64,000 nucleotides of DNA from an uncultured Actinomycetes bacterium (GTDB lineage: Bacteria; Actinomycetota; Acidimicrobiia; Acidimicrobiales; RAAP-2): contig CAIQGE010000009.1 of assembly GCA_903871335.1 (NCBI GenBank), positions 1 through 64,000 of the forward strand, given 5' to 3'. Positions within the stretch are counted from its first letter, which is position 1. Each line of letters begins with the position of its first letter. Shown here piece by piece: positions 30,371-44,161 of the stretch. Made by a program: the position numbers and the translations under genes. Under the pieces are notes generated by a model, which saw nothing but the letters and a program-made list of their open reading frames with translations, was not told the origin of the DNA and did no database searches.

Positions 30371-31036
30371 GTGTTTTGTTCTGGATGCGGGACCGAACTC
30401 GGCACCAACGTCTCGTGCTCCGAGTGTGGCCGACCAGCCCAGTACACGACTCTTGAGGGACGAGGCATCGATCCGGAGTTGCGCGTACCGCTATCTGGCT
30501 GGTGGCACCGGGTGGGCGCCACCATCATTGATGGACTGGTCCTCATTGTTCCCGCGCTCATTGTGGGTGCATTCATCTCGTCGTCCACGTCGAGTCTGCT
30601 CGCGGGCTCCCTCGTCAGCATGGGCTATCAGGTGTTTTTACTCTCTTCCCACCGCGGACAGACCGTGGGAAATATGGCGGTCAAGACCCGCGTCATCCGA
30701 GCGATCCGGTCGGACAGTCCCGTGGCCCTCGGGCTGGGTCAAAGTTTCCTTCGATGGGCCTACGCCGGAGTTCCCACGGTGATCGTCACTCTCCTCGTCG
30801 GAAGCAAATTCAATGACGCTCTGATCTATATCCAAAATCTCCAGCAGAGTGGCACGGTCGTCACGGTGAACGACCTACCTCAATGGGTGCGTACTGACCT
30901 CACCGACACCGTCTCGGCCTTCGGTCTTCCGCTCCTCTACTTGCTCGCTGATCAGCTCACGCCTCTATGGACCCGCCGACGCCAAACGCTGCACGACATG
31001 GTGGCGCGCACCATTGTGGTCCGAACGGATATTTAA
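30371..31036 (+). CDS. RDD-family membrane protein with zinc ribbon
   Basis: The 221-residue protein begins with a four-cysteine zinc ribbon (C3, C6, C16, C19) and continues with an RDD domain: GWWHRVGATIIDGLVL, about four helices, and RRQTLHDMVARTIVV at the end. RDD proteins are integral membrane proteins, some linked to Na+/H+ exchange, mostly unknown. GTG 30371 follows AAAGGGAG. The TAA stop shares TTAA with the stop of the convergent gene. Confidence 0.88.
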   Translation: MFCSGCGTELGTNVSCSECGRPAQYTTLEGRGIDPELRVPLSGWWHRVGATIIDGLVLIVPALIVGAFISSSTSSLLAGSLVSMGYQVFLLSSHRGQTVGNMAVKTRVIRAIRSDSPVALGLGQSFLRWAYAGVPTVIVTLLVGSKFNDALIYIQNLQQSGTVVTVNDLPQWVRTDLTDTVSAFGLPLLYLLADQLTPLWTRRRQTLHDMVARTIVVRTDI

Positions 31037-32199
31037 GCCTTCAGCACCGCGTGAGGCATGCAGAACTCGTCGTACTCGGCAATCACGATCTCGCCGGCGT
31101 TCTCGCCGCACGCCGGGCAGGCCGGGTCGCGGCGAACTTTGAACGTGCGGAAACTCTCGTCGAGGGCGTCAAAGCTCAGCAAGCGACCAACCAATGGGTC
31201 GCCCAGTTCGAGCAGCACCTTGATCGTTTCGAGAGCCTGAATCGAGCCAACGATGCCCGGCAGAACACCCAGCACGCCCGCCTCCGCACAACTCGGGGCG
31301 AGTTCGGCCGGCGGTGGCTCGGGGATCATGCAGCGATAGCAAGGACCGACGTAGGGGTGAAAGACGGTGACCTGGCCCTCAAAACGGAAGATCGAACCGT
31401 GGACCACGGGGATCTTCTTCAACAACGCCGCGTCGTTCACCAAGTAGCGAGTCGGGAAATTATCGGTGCCGTCGACGATGATGTCGTATCCGTCAATGAT
31501 CGATAACACGTTGTCGGCCCCGAGACGAGTGTCGTAGGTGACCACCTTCAGGTCAGGATTCATCGCCGTCAACGTCTTCTTCGCCGAATCCACTTTGCGC
31601 TCACCAATACGGTCCAAGTTGTGGAGAATCTGGCGTTGCAGATTCGACGCGTCGACAACGTCCATGTCGATGATGCCAATCGTGCCCACGCCGGCGGCGG
31701 CTAAGTAGAGGGCGGCGGGTGAGCCGAGTCCTCCGGCGCCGAGCATCAAAACCTTGGCGTCCAACAATTTCTGCTGTCCGGCTTCGCCTACTTCGGGCAA
31801 CAGGAGGTGCCGCTGATAACGGTTTCGTTGGTCGGCGGTCAGCGTGCGGGGCGTCGTCCAGGGAAGGCCATCGTCCTTCCACTTGTTAAAGCCACCGATC
31901 ACCGAAACGACGTCGGTGTATCCCAGTTCTTGGAGGGTGCGCGCAGCGAAAGCGGAACGAACACCACCGGCGCAATAGACCGCGATGGGGGCGTTCTTGT
32001 CCGTGAGGCGGCCCTCAATGGAGAATTCCAACTGTCCCCGAGGAACGTGGACGGCACCGGGGACGGCACCCTGCTCGTATTCGTCGGGTTCTCGCACGTC
32101 GAGTAATTGAAAGTGGTCGAGGCGCGACGCTACTTCGGCGGCGTCAATCTCTCGAATCTCGGCCTTCGCCGCATTGAGTAGTTCTCGCGGTGTTGCCAT
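31033..32199 (-). CDS. Rhodanese-MoeB/ThiF adenylyltransferase
   Basis: The 388-residue protein has an N-terminal rhodanese domain (about 15-110, persulfide Cys76 in YCAGGVRS) and then an E1-like adenylating domain with GAGGLGSPAALYLAAAGVG, NLQRQI and two zinc CxxC pairs (CYRC, CPAC). It should adenylate and thiocarboxylate the C-terminus of a sulfur carrier such as MoaD or ThiS. In the known MoeZ/MoeBR proteins the rhodanese is C-terminal; here the order is reversed. A clear AGGAGG site precedes the ATG. Both MoaC and ThiE in the window are possible pathway partners. Confidence 0.92.
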   Translation of the reverse strand: MATPRELLNAAKAEIREIDAAEVASRLDHFQLLDVREPDEYEQGAVPGAVHVPRGQLEFSIEGRLTDKNAPIAVYCAGGVRSAFAARTLQELGYTDVVSVIGGFNKWKDDGLPWTTPRTLTADQRNRYQRHLLLPEVGEAGQQKLLDAKVLMLGAGGLGSPAALYLAAAGVGTIGIIDMDVVDASNLQRQILHNLDRIGERKVDSAKKTLTAMNPDLKVVTYDTRLGADNVLSIIDGYDIIVDGTDNFPTRYLVNDAALLKKIPVVHGSIFRFEGQVTVFHPYVGPCYRCMIPEPPPAELAPSCAEAGVLGVLPGIVGSIQALETIKVLLELGDPLVGRLLSFDALDESFRTFKVRRDPACPACGENAGEIVIAEYDEFCMPHAVLKA

Positions 32200-38549: not shown

Positions 38550-38972
38550 GTGCGAAACAAGATTCCTTTCGTCTTTTTGTTCATCCTGACCCTCGGAGCC
38601 GGGGGCATGGCCGCCGTCTCGATCACTCAGGCCCAGCCGGTCGCTCACGCGGTCGTTGTCGACTGCGGCACGCCCGGTGGCCCCGGCGTGAATTCGCCGA
38701 CGTCTCTGGTTCTCACCTGTGCCGACGCCGGCGTGACGCTGACACAACTCACCTGGAAGGGCTGGGGAATGCCCGTCGCGACGGGGCATGGCGACCTCAA
38801 CGTCAATAACTGTGTGCCCGATTGCGCCAGTTCGGTGACCACTACCTACCACGACGTCACGGTGGCCCTCGGCGACCTTCGCAACGGGCACTACTACACC
38901 AAGCTCACCGTTGACCACTCGATCAACGGATCCTCCGGCACGATCTACTACTTCTACCCCGCAATGAATTAG
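38550..38972 (+). CDS. Secreted protein of unknown function
   Basis: The 140-residue product has a signal peptide (FVFLFILTLGAGGMAAVSI, likely cut after ...VAHA at about residue 34). The mature part has four cysteines, LTWKGWGMPVATGHG, NNCVPDCASS and a repeated pattern of beta strands, resembling a family of small secreted actinobacterial proteins without known role. GTG 38550 is six bases after TAGACT (38538-38543). Its stop shares TTAG with lipBA. Confidence 0.75.
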   Translation: MRNKIPFVFLFILTLGAGGMAAVSITQAQPVAHAVVVDCGTPGGPGVNSPTSLVLTCADAGVTLTQLTWKGWGMPVATGHGDLNVNNCVPDCASSVTTTYHDVTVALGDLRNGHYYTKLTVDHSINGSSGTIYYFYPAMN

Positions 38973-40597
38973 CGGGAACGTGTCGAGAGCGACACGGGCG
39001 TCGCGGCCTCGAGGGCGTCGCGCGCGTGGTAGCTCGAACGCGTGAGGGGTGACGACTGGACGTGCGAGAGGCCGAGGGCTCGACCGGCGGCCGCGAGTTC
39101 GTCGAATTCTTCGGGCGTCCACCACCGGGCCACCGGAAGGTGACGAACGGTCGGGCGCAGATACTGCCCGATGGTCGCGATCGACACACCGACGGCCGCC
39201 AAATCGCGAAGAGTTTCGACGACTTCCTCGCGCTCCTCGCCGAGGCCCACCATCAGCCCCGACTTCACCGTCATGCCGGCGTCGACGGATCGGGCGAGGG
39301 TCACGAGTGATCGAGCGTAACTCGCACTCGGTCGCACGGCCCGCTGGAGACGGGCCACGGTTTCGATGTTGTGATTGAGAACGTCGGGACGAGCATCAAG
39401 GATGAGCTGCAACGACGACGCGTCGCCTCGCACATCTGAAATCAAGACCTCAATATCGGTCTCGGGACGTGCGTCACGAATAGCGCGGATGGTGTTCGCA
39501 ATGGCGCCGGCGCCGCCGTCGGCCAGATCGTCTCGAGCCACGCAGGTGATCACGGCGTGTTGCAGTCCAAGACGCACCACTGCCTCAGCCACTCGCGCGG
39601 GCTCCGTCGGATCGAGCGGCAGGGGCTTGCGGGTATCGACGAGACAGAATCCGCAGGCTCGCGTGCACCGCTCGCCATTCACCATGAATGTCGCGGTTCC
39701 GCTCTGCCAGCACTCGAAGATGTTGGGACAGCCGGCTTCTTCGCACACCGTCACCAGGCGAAGATCCTCCGTCAAGGTCCGCAGCGACTGGAACTCATTT
39801 CCCATGTGGGCCGGAATTCGGAGCCATTCGGGCTTTCGTTGCTGTAGGGGGACAGCGGAGTCAGGATTCACGCCCGCCCGTCGTAACCGACGAATGAGAG
39901 CTGGCTCGCTGCCCGACGTCGCCGCACCACGGTCCACGCGCGCCACGGTCTCTGAGGGACCCAGACGGGCCGCCAACTCTCGACCGAGCCGTTCTTCGAC
40001 GTCCTCGGTGGCGACGTCAAGTCCGAGACTTCGTAGTGAGGCCACCGGACGATCCGTAATGCCGCAGGGAACAATGACCTCGAAGGCCGAGAGGTCGACG
40101 TTGACATTGAGGGCGACCCCGTGCAAGGTGCGACGACGCCCTTGGTTGTCACGTTCGGTGCGCACACCGACGGCGGCAATCTTGTGTGGCACCGATTCGA
40201 GTTGGGCCCACACCCCGGGATAGCCCTCGAGACGACCCACCGTTCCGAGGAGTCCTTCGCTGTCCGCGTCACGCACCGTCGCGATCACCGCATCCTCGAG
40301 TAGGTGCACGTGCAGCCGGCCGGCGCTCGGATCGTCCGGCACGGTGACGATCGCCCAAGCGACGACCTGTCCGGGTCCGTGGTACGTCACGTCACCACCG
40401 CGATCGGCGTCCACGACGTCGGCCGCGAGCGTGGTCGTATCCACGAGGAAGTGGTTCTCCTGAGCCCTCACGCCACGGGTGTACGTCGCCGGGTGCTCCA
40501 ACAAGAGCAGGTAATCATCCGTCGCCGACAGGAGAGCGTGCTGTAGATCGTTGGCTTCGCTGAACGTCACGCGACCGAGATGGCGGCGACGCAGCAC
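38969..40597 (-). CDS. LipB-LipA fusion: octanoyltransferase and lipoyl synthase in one chain
   Basis: One uninterrupted 542-residue frame carries both lipoate enzymes. Residues 1-215 are LipB, with the catalytic pair K139 (PHKIAAVGV) and C178 (IVPCGITD). Residues about 240-542 are LipA, with auxiliary-cluster cysteines C285, C290 and C296 and the radical-SAM CTRACGFC (C311, C315, C318). LipB moves octanoate onto the E2 lipoyl lysine; LipA inserts two sulfurs. They are normally separate proteins. The GTG start directly follows the TAG of the E2 gene, so translation is coupled to its substrate. Confidence 0.92.
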   Translation of the reverse strand: MLRRRHLGRVTFSEANDLQHALLSATDDYLLLLEHPATYTRGVRAQENHFLVDTTTLAADVVDADRGGDVTYHGPGQVVAWAIVTVPDDPSAGRLHVHLLEDAVIATVRDADSEGLLGTVGRLEGYPGVWAQLESVPHKIAAVGVRTERDNQGRRRTLHGVALNVNVDLSAFEVIVPCGITDRPVASLRSLGLDVATEDVEERLGRELAARLGPSETVARVDRGAATSGSEPALIRRLRRAGVNPDSAVPLQQRKPEWLRIPAHMGNEFQSLRTLTEDLRLVTVCEEAGCPNIFECWQSGTATFMVNGERCTRACGFCLVDTRKPLPLDPTEPARVAEAVVRLGLQHAVITCVARDDLADGGAGAIANTIRAIRDARPETDIEVLISDVRGDASSLQLILDARPDVLNHNIETVARLQRAVRPSASYARSLVTLARSVDAGMTVKSGLMVGLGEEREEVVETLRDLAAVGVSIATIGQYLRPTVRHLPVARWWTPEEFDELAAAGRALGLSHVQSSPLTRSSYHARDALEAATPVSLSTRSR

Positions 40598-41782
40598 CTA
40601 GCGCTCCACCTCGACGTCGATGGACGCCAGGAGATCACCGACACGCTCGAGGTAGCGTCCGGCCGTGGCCGGATCGCAGACGCGATGGTCGAAGGAGAGT
40701 CCGAGAACGATCCGGCGACCCGGCTCGACGACCAGAGCTCCATCTCGCTCCACGACGACCGGCACGCGGCGGGGAGAACCCACCGACAACGCCGCAACTT
40801 CGGGCTGGATAATGATCGGCTGCACGAACAAGGTGTGCATGCTCGGTGCCGGAATGAGCGTGAAGGTTCCGCCGAGGAGATCGTCCGTCGTCAATTGACG
40901 TGTGTCCACGCGATCTTCGAGGTCCGCCAGTCGACGAGCCAGCGCGCGCAACGTCAATCCCGCCGCCGCGTGCACGACGGGCACCAACATGCCGTCCCGC
41001 TCCGCAGTGCGGGCGAAACCCAGATTGATCGCTCGATGCTCGACAATTTCGTCGCCGGCGAACGTGGCGTTGAGCGTCGGAAACTCACCCAGAGCGCGAA
41101 CGGCAGCCAGCGCCACGACGGCTTCATCCGAAATCGGAGACCCGTCAGAGCTCACCGAGCCCACGGCGTCAACTGCGTCGAAGATGCTGGCGTCCACTTC
41201 AATGGCCACGAAGCCGTGTGGCGTGGACTGGGCGGACAAGGACATGTGCGCCGCCATGCGACGCTGGCCGTTCGACAGTGACACCGCGACGTCATCGGTG
41301 GGGCCGTTGGCGACGGCGCGTTCAGCGTCGCGGCGAGTGATCGCCCCACCGGCGCCAGATCCACGCACCGTGCGCGGGTCGACATTGCCGTCGGCGAGGA
41401 TACGGCGCACGACCGGCGACGCGAGGACACCGGTAGCACCACTAGTCGCGGTCGTTGGCGGAGGTGTGGTGGTTGGGGCGGCCGCGGGCGTGGGTGCGGC
41501 TGGCGCGGGTACCGCGTCGCTCGAGGGTGCAGCGGACGTGGCTCCGTCGCCGTCTCCAATCACGGCGAGACGAGCTCCCACTTCCACCGTGTCACCCTCT
41601 TGCGCCACGATTTGGAGCAAGACGCCGGCGCTCGGCGAGGGCATTTCTGAATCGACTTTGTCGGTGGAGATTTCACAGATCGGTTCGTCGCGTTCGACGC
41701 GATCACCCACCTGCTTCATCCAGCGAATGACGATGCCTTCGGTGACTGATTCACCGAGAGAAGGGAGAAGAACGTCAACCAA
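40598..41782 (-). CDS. 2-oxoacid dehydrogenase E2 dihydrolipoamide acyltransferase
   Basis: The 394-residue protein has a lipoyl domain (1-80, lipoyl lysine K42 in STDKVDSE), an Ala/Pro/Thr linker, a peripheral subunit-binding domain (LASPVVRRILADGNVDPRTV) and the acyltransferase core ending in SFDHRVCDPATAG with the catalytic His. The usual DG after DHRxx is DP here. The TTG start at 41782 places the lysine at the canonical position 42; it lies inside the last codons of lpd. Whether it serves pyruvate, 2-oxoglutarate or branched-chain acids is undecided, since E1 is absent. Confidence 0.88.
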   Translation of the reverse strand: MVDVLLPSLGESVTEGIVIRWMKQVGDRVERDEPICEISTDKVDSEMPSPSAGVLLQIVAQEGDTVEVGARLAVIGDGDGATSAAPSSDAVPAPAAPTPAAAPTTTPPPTTATSGATGVLASPVVRRILADGNVDPRTVRGSGAGGAITRRDAERAVANGPTDDVAVSLSNGQRRMAAHMSLSAQSTPHGFVAIEVDASIFDAVDAVGSVSSDGSPISDEAVVALAAVRALGEFPTLNATFAGDEIVEHRAINLGFARTAERDGMLVPVVHAAAGLTLRALARRLADLEDRVDTRQLTTDDLLGGTFTLIPAPSMHTLFVQPIIIQPEVAALSVGSPRRVPVVVERDGALVVEPGRRIVLGLSFDHRVCDPATAGRYLERVGDLLASIDVEVER

Positions 41783-43196
41783 CGTGGAGCCCCCGACCGG
41801 CGAGGGCGAGCAAAGTTTCGCCAAAGGTCTCGGACAACGACGGGTGAGGCTGGATGAGTAGCGCCGCTTCCTCCGCCGTCGCCTCCCAATTAACGGCGAA
41901 GTACCCTGCGCCTAATTGTTCGGTGACCCACGGTCCCGCCATGTGGACGCCGAGGAGCTGGCCGGCAGTTCCGTCCGGACGCTTCTCCGCGATGATCTTG
42001 ACGACCCCATCGGTGTCACCAATGATGCGGGCTCGGGAGTTGCCTCCGAAAGGATCCTTCTTCACCACGACGTCGTAACCACGTTCCTTCGCGGCGGCTT
42101 CGGTGAGGCCACAGAACGCAACCTCGGGGTTGGAATAGATCGCCCACGGAACCCGGTCGTAATCGACGGGCAAGGGCGACTCGCCGAGGATTGACTTGAT
42201 CACGACAATGGCTTCGGCGAAGGCCACGTGGGCCAACTGCGGCGTGCCCGCCACAATGTCCCCGACCGCGAAGATCTTGGGATTGGCGGTGCGCATCAAC
42301 GAATCGGTCACGACAAAACCACGTTCATTGACCTCAACGCCCGTTCCTTCGGCGAGGAGGCCCTCCGTGCGAGGCGCTCGGCCGACGGACACAACGACCA
42401 TGTCCACCTCGACATCGTCGCCGCCGTCGACGTGCACCGCGGTTCGCGTGCCGGCCTCATTGGGAGTGTGACCGGTGACCTGGGCGGAAGTTCGAATCTC
42501 GATACCGCGCTTCTTAAAGGCGCGCTGCACGACACCGGCGACCTCGGTGTCACATCCCGTGAGAATCGACGGCAGACCCTCCAAAATGGTTACGTGCGAA
42601 CCCATGTCGGCGAGCATCGAGGCGAACTCACAACCAATCGCTCCCCCGCCAATCACCACCGCGGACGACGGCAACGTCGTGAGGTCGAGGAACTCGTCGG
42701 ACGTGACGATCAAGGAACCGGTGACGTCGAAACCGGGGATGGTGCGAGGGATTGAACCTGACGCGAGGACCACGTGGGCGCCCGCCAGCGTGACGCCGGC
42801 GTCCGCGCCATCGACGACGCTGACCGTGCCGTCGGCGAGCACGGTGGCGAGGCCGGAGAACACGGTGACCTTACGACCCTTGAGCAGGCCCGAGACGCCC
42901 TTGAACAGCACGTCGACGACCTCGTTCTTGCGACTCTGGCTGACCGAGAAGTCGACGGTGACGTCAGCGACGTTGACGCCAAAATCAGAGGAATGCGCAA
43001 TGGTCCGACGCACGTGCGCGGTCTCGAGAAACTCCTTGGCCGGCACGCAGCCACGGTGCAGGCACGTGCCACCGACCTTGTCTTTTTCGACCAGAGCAAT
43101 CGACAAGCCCGCGGACGCTCCGTACAGAGCGGTGGCGTAGCCGCCAGGACCTCCGCCAATGATGACAACATCGAACGATTGCACTTCGGAGGCCAC
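41775..43196 (-). CDS. lpdA: Dihydrolipoamide dehydrogenase (E3)
   Basis: The 473-residue flavoprotein reoxidises lipoamide. It shows FAD motif IIGGGPGGYATAL, the redox disulfide C45/C50 in GGTCLHRGC, NAD motif VIGGGAIGCEFA and the C-terminal HPSLSE base. GTG 43196 is chosen after AAAGGA, five codons downstream of the frame opening. It heads the lpd-E2-lipBA operon. Confidence 0.95.
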   Translation of the reverse strand: MASEVQSFDVVIIGGGPGGYATALYGASAGLSIALVEKDKVGGTCLHRGCVPAKEFLETAHVRRTIAHSSDFGVNVADVTVDFSVSQSRKNEVVDVLFKGVSGLLKGRKVTVFSGLATVLADGTVSVVDGADAGVTLAGAHVVLASGSIPRTIPGFDVTGSLIVTSDEFLDLTTLPSSAVVIGGGAIGCEFASMLADMGSHVTILEGLPSILTGCDTEVAGVVQRAFKKRGIEIRTSAQVTGHTPNEAGTRTAVHVDGGDDVEVDMVVVSVGRAPRTEGLLAEGTGVEVNERGFVVTDSLMRTANPKIFAVGDIVAGTPQLAHVAFAEAIVVIKSILGESPLPVDYDRVPWAIYSNPEVAFCGLTEAAAKERGYDVVVKKDPFGGNSRARIIGDTDGVVKIIAEKRPDGTAGQLLGVHMAGPWVTEQLGAGYFAVNWEATAEEAALLIQPHPSLSETFGETLLALAGRGLHVG

Positions 43197-43259
43197 GTTG
43201 CGTCCTTTCACGGGAGACTCAGAACGCCCTCAAGCCTACCGACTACGCACAACGCCTAT

Positions 43260-43709
43260 TCAGTTCGGTCGGACGGAGACCCCTCGCTGGGCGTCCGCCG
43301 CGGCCGTGGCGAGCACGTCCACGAAATCATTCATTCGGTCCCCCGAGTGACCCTTCACCCAGGTAAAGGTCACGGCGCGATCCGCGTGGATCGTGAGTGC
43401 GAACAGGTCCTCCCAGAGGTCTCGATTGGCGACGGGTTGACCCTGTGAGTTCTTCCAGCCGCGGCGCAACCAGCCTGTGTGCCAGCGGTCGTTGAAGCAC
43501 TTGACCACGTACGTCGAGTCGCTCACAATTTCGACGGGACCGTCGGGATAGGCCCGCAGAGCCTCAATGACGGCCCGAACCTCCATCCGTTGATTCGTCG
43601 TCGGATTGTCCGCCCCGCTGGCGTAGTGGGTCTCGTCCAAGGCCCACGCCCAGCCCCCCGGACCCGGATTACCGCGGCACGACCCGTCAGTGTGGATGCG
43701 CACGCTCAC
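43260..43709 (-). CDS. rnhA: Ribonuclease HI
   Basis: RNase HI cuts RNA in RNA-DNA hybrids. The 149-residue enzyme keeps the active residues D8 (HTDGSCRGNPGPGGW), E43 (NQRMEVRA), D64 (IVSDSTYV), H121 (WVKGHSG) and D131. The GTG 43709 overlaps the stop of the Rrf2 gene as GTGA. An open extension to 43838 is Arg-rich antisense-like sequence and is not used. Confidence 0.93.
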   Translation of the reverse strand: MSVRIHTDGSCRGNPGPGGWAWALDETHYASGADNPTTNQRMEVRAVIEALRAYPDGPVEIVSDSTYVVKCFNDRWHTGWLRRGWKNSQGQPVANRDLWEDLFALTIHADRAVTFTWVKGHSGDRMNDFVDVLATAAADAQRGVSVRPN

Positions 43710-44161
43710 GTGCGCGAGTGCCAGGCGTCCGGATCGCCAGTGAATTTGGTCACGCCGTCGGGAAGATTCCCCGACACGATGTCTTCCAAACTCACGTGCT
43801 CGAGAACGACGCGCAGGCTCGCCCGCACCGCCACCCACACGTCGCGTAGATGCGTCGCGGCACCCGCGTATTCCAGCGTTTCGGGCCGCATCCCACGGAC
43901 GCCGGCCATCGGCCCGCCCAGGACGCGCAGGACATCAGCAATGGAGATCTCGCTCGGTGCCTTCGCGAGACGAAACCCACCCTCCGCGCCTCGCTGAGAG
44001 GTCACGATGCCGCCACGACGCAAGTCCGAAAGAATCGCGCCGAGGAACTTCGGGGGCAGACCTTGTTCGTGCGCCAAGTTTTCGGCGCTCACCGACTCCG
44101 TCGTGCTCGCGAGCGTCAGCAGTGCACGAATGGCGTAATCGGCTTTGGCGGGAATCTGCAC
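43706..44161 (-). CDS. Rrf2-family transcription regulator without cysteines
   Basis: The 151-residue protein begins MQIPAKADYAIRALLTLA and has the winged helix with QGLPPKFLGAILSDLRRGGIV and QRGAEGGFRLAK, standard for Rrf2. Iron-sulfur Rrf2 proteins (IscR, NsrR, RsrR) use three cysteines; this one has none, so it should sense something else. The GTG lies six bases after CAGAAT. The divergent thiE promoter with dyads at 44205-44237 is the likely target. Confidence 0.9.
   Translation of the reverse strand: MQIPAKADYAIRALLTLASTTESVSAENLAHEQGLPPKFLGAILSDLRRGGIVTSQRGAEGGFRLAKAPSEISIADVLRVLGGPMAGVRGMRPETLEYAGAATHLRDVWVAVRASLRVVLEHVSLEDIVSGNLPDGVTKFTGDPDAWHSRT

Follow-up and report, generated by a model that had tools for sequence, protein, structure and literature searches.

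Fusion of octanoyltransferase LipB and lipoyl synthase LipA as a trait of the bacterial class Acidimicrobiia

The fused gene and its neighbourhood

The window, the whole stretch of 64,000 nucleotides analysed here (from contig CAIQGE010000009.1 of an uncultured Actinomycetes bacterium), carries on its minus strand a gene, lipBA, in which an octanoyltransferase (LipB) and a lipoyl synthase (LipA) share one reading frame (Table 1). The plus-strand translation of the same interval is interrupted by many stops. A sequence-only reading had proposed that the two enzymes lie in a single continuous frame of 542 residues, that both sets of catalytic residues are intact and that the gene abuts that for E2 with zero intergenic bases. 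All of this is borne out: the frame by the open reading frame list and the sequence, and by the same architecture at 157 related loci; the residues by their invariance in 21 aligned fused proteins and their alignment to the M. tuberculosis structures 1w66 and 5exi; and the junction with E2 by the GTG start codon, which comes right after the TAG of E2 and in the same frame.

Table 1. Features of the lipBA locus, in positions of the window
Feature	Position	Strand	Basis
lipBA fusion gene	38969..40597	minus	Open reading frame list and sequence; GTG start, 542 aa, TAA stop
LipB octanoyltransferase domain, residues 1-213	39959..40597	minus	Pfam LplA-B_cat, TIGR00214, 1w66
LipB catalytic lysine K139	40181..40183	minus	Invariant in 21 aligned fused proteins; aligns with M. 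tuberculosis LipB lysine
LipB catalytic cysteine C178, PCGI motif	40064..40066	minus	Invariant in 21 aligned fused proteins; aligns with M. tuberculosis PCGI cysteine
Interdomain linker, residues 214-232, variable	39902..39958	minus	21-protein alignment; LipA homology to 5exi from 233
LipA lipoyl synthase domain, residues 233-542	38972..39901	minus	TIGR00510, Radical_SAM, 5exi
LipA auxiliary-cluster motif C285-X4-C290-X5-C296	39710..39745	minus	Invariant columns (21 fused proteins)
LipA radical-SAM cluster motif C311-X3-C315-X2-C318	39644..39667	minus	Invariant columns (21 fused proteins)
LipA C-terminal RSSY motif, residues 520-523	39029..39040	minus	Invariant columns (21 fused proteins)
E2, dihydrolipoyllysine acyltransferase, sucB-like	40598..41824	minus	Biotin_lipoyl, E3_binding, 2-oxoacid_dh (Pfam)
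Dihydrolipoyl dehydrogenase (E3), upstream of E2	41775..43211	minus	TIGR01350, 466 bits (cut-off 409)

The first domain is matched by Pfam LplA-B_cat at residues 18-208 (88.9 bits, cut-off 27) and by the NCBIfam lipB equivalog model TIGR00214 at 123.5 bits, above its cut-off of 83.55. M. tuberculosis LipB (PDB 1w66) matches it with an E value of 3e-31, and the predicted model matches the same structure by fold. That enzyme works by a Cys/Lys dyad, the finding given in the title of Ma et al. 2006, and K139 and C178 provide the dyad in the fusion. Though the catalytic-domain superfamily is common to the LipM/LipL/LplA family, TIGR00214 identifies the domain as LipB and LplA structures are far weaker matches than 1w66.

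For the second domain, Pfam Radical_SAM matches residues 309-466 (63.8 bits, cut-off 29.5) and the lipA equivalog model TIGR00510 gives 336.9 bits against a cut-off of 310.25. The score of Pfam LIAS_N is close to its cut-off because just the second half of that model matches. The alignment with M. tuberculosis LipA (PDB 5exi; E 9e-87) runs over the LipA length, and the features expected of LipA, the CX4CX5C and CX3CX2C cluster motifs and the C-terminal RSSY, are all present. The relatives in the alignment used for catalytic residues are 55-76% identical to the window protein. In the AlphaFold model of the two-domain protein (pLDDT 87.5, pTM 0.90) both domains are confident, and the fold comparison gave separate matches to crystal structures of LipA and of LipB.

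Since homology to 5exi starts only at residue 233, there are about 19 residues of extra interdomain sequence. The gap between the LipB and LipA BLAST matches ranges from 21 to 123 aa (median 56; 157 loci). With both its sequence and its length variable, the linker looks like a tether and not a specific docking element, and, unconserved as it is, it gives no support for a specific channel.

A same-strand E2 gene is upstream of the fused gene at 104 of the 116 loci with sufficient upstream DNA, and at fused loci a median of 8 bases separates the E2 stop from the first LipB codon in the match. The E2 directly upstream of lipBA is likely a lipoyl acceptor. On the plus strand, convergent with lipBA and overlapping its end by 4 bases with its own 3′ end, is a gene for a small secreted-looking protein with no Pfam match (38550-38972). 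A gene for an Rrf2-family regulator is near the E3-E2-lipBA cluster (43706-44161, minus strand); regulators of this family are often iron-sulfur sensors. Elsewhere in the window a rhodanese-like domain is followed, as judged by eye, by a ThiF/MoeB-like adenylyltransferase (31033-32199, minus strand), the reverse of the domain order in actinobacterial MoeZ.

Distribution within and outside the Acidimicrobiia

Of the genomes searched, 298 from the order and 296 from the class, nearly all gave matches. Both domains are in one frame at 159 of 162 in-class loci (156 distinct sequences), at full length in 157. These 157 comprise 94 loci from whole genomes, which represent 42 families and 76 genera, and 63 from named or MAG records, whose titles are mostly Acidimicrobiia or unclassified Actinomycetota and which include Acidimicrobium, Ferrithrix, Microthrix, Ilumatobacteraceae and an Acidiferrimicrobium isolate. 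The LipB-LipA fusion is an old trait of essentially the whole class Acidimicrobiia, not a quirk of one genome.

Some in-class genomes have two matches, and these were considered as potential split genes; when 30 loci of this kind, or weaker in some other way, were read, the two domains proved to share a frame. Similarly, in-frame stops were listed within four long matches (L018, L056, L062, L063), at each of which one uninterrupted frame still spans both domains. The three in-class loci that lack a single-frame fusion are L080, L128 and L143, the last of which starts at a contig end. At L080 and L128, both MAG loci with LipA intact, the LipA-bearing frame is 439-464 aa, which exceeds LipA alone, and so the break is inside LipB and not at the junction; it may reflect sequencing error or loss of LipB. 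Three MAG records (L116, L120, L123) are titled Bifidobacterium breve and yet have a fusion of the Acidimicrobiia type; the label is probably wrong.

The fusion is absent from all 53 loci sampled in other classes of the Actinomycetota. For 40 of them that were fetched, suspiciously long LipA frames were deliberately picked first; none is fused, and 26 of the 40 have a separate lipB nearby on the same strand. The other 13, from named or MAG Actinomycetes (Dietzia, Nocardia, Rhodococcus, Arthrobacter, Kocuria and others), have the genes split but adjacent. Among the matches listed for 397 genomes drawn from the phylum, none outside the class spans both domains free of stops. Separate lipB and lipA adjoin in most of the 53 outside-class loci, often behind E2, and a same-strand E2 is also present at many split loci. 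Plasmid records gave 210 with a match, 8 of them covering most of the query, and those 8 match in two pieces; in the two listed ones that are annotated, lipA and lipB are two genes. The survey sample being Actinomycetota and plasmid records, a second LipB-LipA fusion may exist in phyla beyond it.

Origin of the fusion

The two domains were placed in separate trees. The LipA tree, with 53 split sequences and 40 diverse fused ones, has a single branch that sets the fused sequences apart from the rest; its SH-aLRT is 82 in the quick tree and 69/44 in the careful tree, and 72% of bootstrap trees recover it. The LipB tree was made from 40 fused and 37 split sequences, with one very long-branch sequence (L208) left out, and there the fused set is on one branch with 99% SH-aLRT; when L208 is kept, two changes are needed. 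The two trees thus agree with a single origin, the support for monophyly being weak for LipA.

The fusion most likely arose from a lipB-lipA pair that was already adjacent, which makes the joining a small step. The simplest history starts from an ancestral cluster of E2, lipB and lipA, where the stop codon of lipB would have been lost once, near the base of the Acidimicrobiia, with the fusion kept since. As far as the sequences and trees indicate, there was probably one fusion of neighbouring genes, which became fixed near the base of the Acidimicrobiia.

Function of the single chain and its relation to known systems

The separate LipB and LipA of other Actinomycetota, exemplified by the M. 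tuberculosis structures 1w66 and 5exi/5exj/5exk, have like domains, folds and catalytic residues, and their genes have the same lipB-lipA order, often behind E2, as in the fusion. The difference is that they are two polypeptides, whereas in Acidimicrobiia one chain is encoded. The nearest catalogued fusion found, the NCBIfam family NF053790 (LplA_LipA_fuse, bifunctional lipoate–protein ligase/lipoyl synthase), likewise has an acyl-attaching domain ahead of LipA, though there an LplA ligase makes up the N-terminal part and the first domain of the fusion is LipB. The window protein does not belong to this family: it scores 347.4 bits against a cut-off of 800, with just profile positions 330-605, the LipA part, matched.

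LipB, via an acyl-enzyme, transfers octanoate from ACP to a lysine in the lipoyl domain and LipA adds two sulfurs, as described in PMC12246082. Ordinary LipB and then LipA chemistry on E2 and GcvH is most likely for the fusion also. The LipB domain would take octanoyl from octanoyl-ACP onto C178 and pass it to the lipoyl-domain lysine of E2 or GcvH, and the LipA domain would then insert two sulfurs into the octanoylated lipoyl domain by radical-SAM chemistry. Both domains are presumably active, with the product staying one polypeptide. Overall, lipBA very probably encodes a bifunctional lipoate-assembly enzyme of single origin, formed when the stop separating adjacent lipB and lipA was lost, and retained ever since.

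Whether the domains cooperate is a separate matter. The tether could raise the local concentration of LipA for the octanoylated domain, and channelling of octanoyl-E2 by the fusion is plausible. E. coli LipA and LipB reportedly copurify with 2-oxoacid dehydrogenase complexes; if so, a benefit in local concentration would be plausible. A more elaborate scheme, in which a chain docked on the E2 complex of the same operon octanoylates and then sulfurates the lipoyl domain without release to the cytosol, is a speculative and rather unlikely one. A competitor to a hand-off, and one that leaves bifunctionality untouched, is that the fusion is functionally neutral: the two enzymes would work independently although they share a chain, and the joined form would persist only because regaining a stop and a new start is rare. 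The variability of the linker favours this, as does the arrangement in other classes, where adjacency of the separate genes, often behind E2, would make joining cheap; on the other hand, in a plain count over the 162 in-class loci no clean fission at the junction is present. The chances of the neutral reading come close to even.

It is improbable that lipBA yields free LipA in addition to the full-length protein, by internal initiation or proteolysis. Each of the 157 genes has at least one start codon in the linker region, an ATG in 131 of them, and in 71 of the 157 some such start has a 4-base Shine-Dalgarno-like match, but ATG and a match come together in just 21. A conserved internal start for free LipA was looked for in these 157 fused genes and not found; start position is unconserved, the near-invariant AGV valine being GTG in 29 of the 111 genes in which the motif was found. 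As for two genes joined by a sequencing or assembly error, which the sequence-only reading had named beforehand as what would refute it and whose sole attraction is how rare the architecture is among well-studied bacteria, the 157 single-frame relatives, from isolate as well as MAG assemblies, rule this out and leave it a negligible probability.

The enzymes and the pathway are known and the chemistry is unsurprising; it is the class-wide fusion for which no description was found. Literature searches, with thin coverage of subscription literature, retrieved no paper naming a LipB–LipA fusion, though the architecture may have automatic entries in domain databases. A GTDB-wide survey of lipoate assembly treats LplA/LplB fusions (PMC10332631), and the passages found of it do not include a LipB–LipA fusion.

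The fusion provides the de novo lipoate pathway in a natural single-chain form; it serves as a rare-event marker for an entire bacterial class and, as a fused gene, lends 'Rosetta-stone' support to joint action of LipB and LipA. It is also a ready construct for asking whether octanoyl-E2 passes between the two. If automatic annotation gave it one name, lipoyl synthase or LipB alone, metabolic reconstructions of Acidimicrobiia would miss the other activity.

The source genome has one LipA and one recognisable LipB, with E2 and GcvH present as acceptors, which probably makes the fusion its sole de novo route to lipoate. A stand-alone protein of 245 aa of the LplA/LipB/LipM superfamily, above the cut-off of no NCBIfam equivalog, is encoded on contig 25 (138740-139201, plus strand; L034:1381-2115), and is possibly a salvage ligase or an octanoyl- or amido-transferase.
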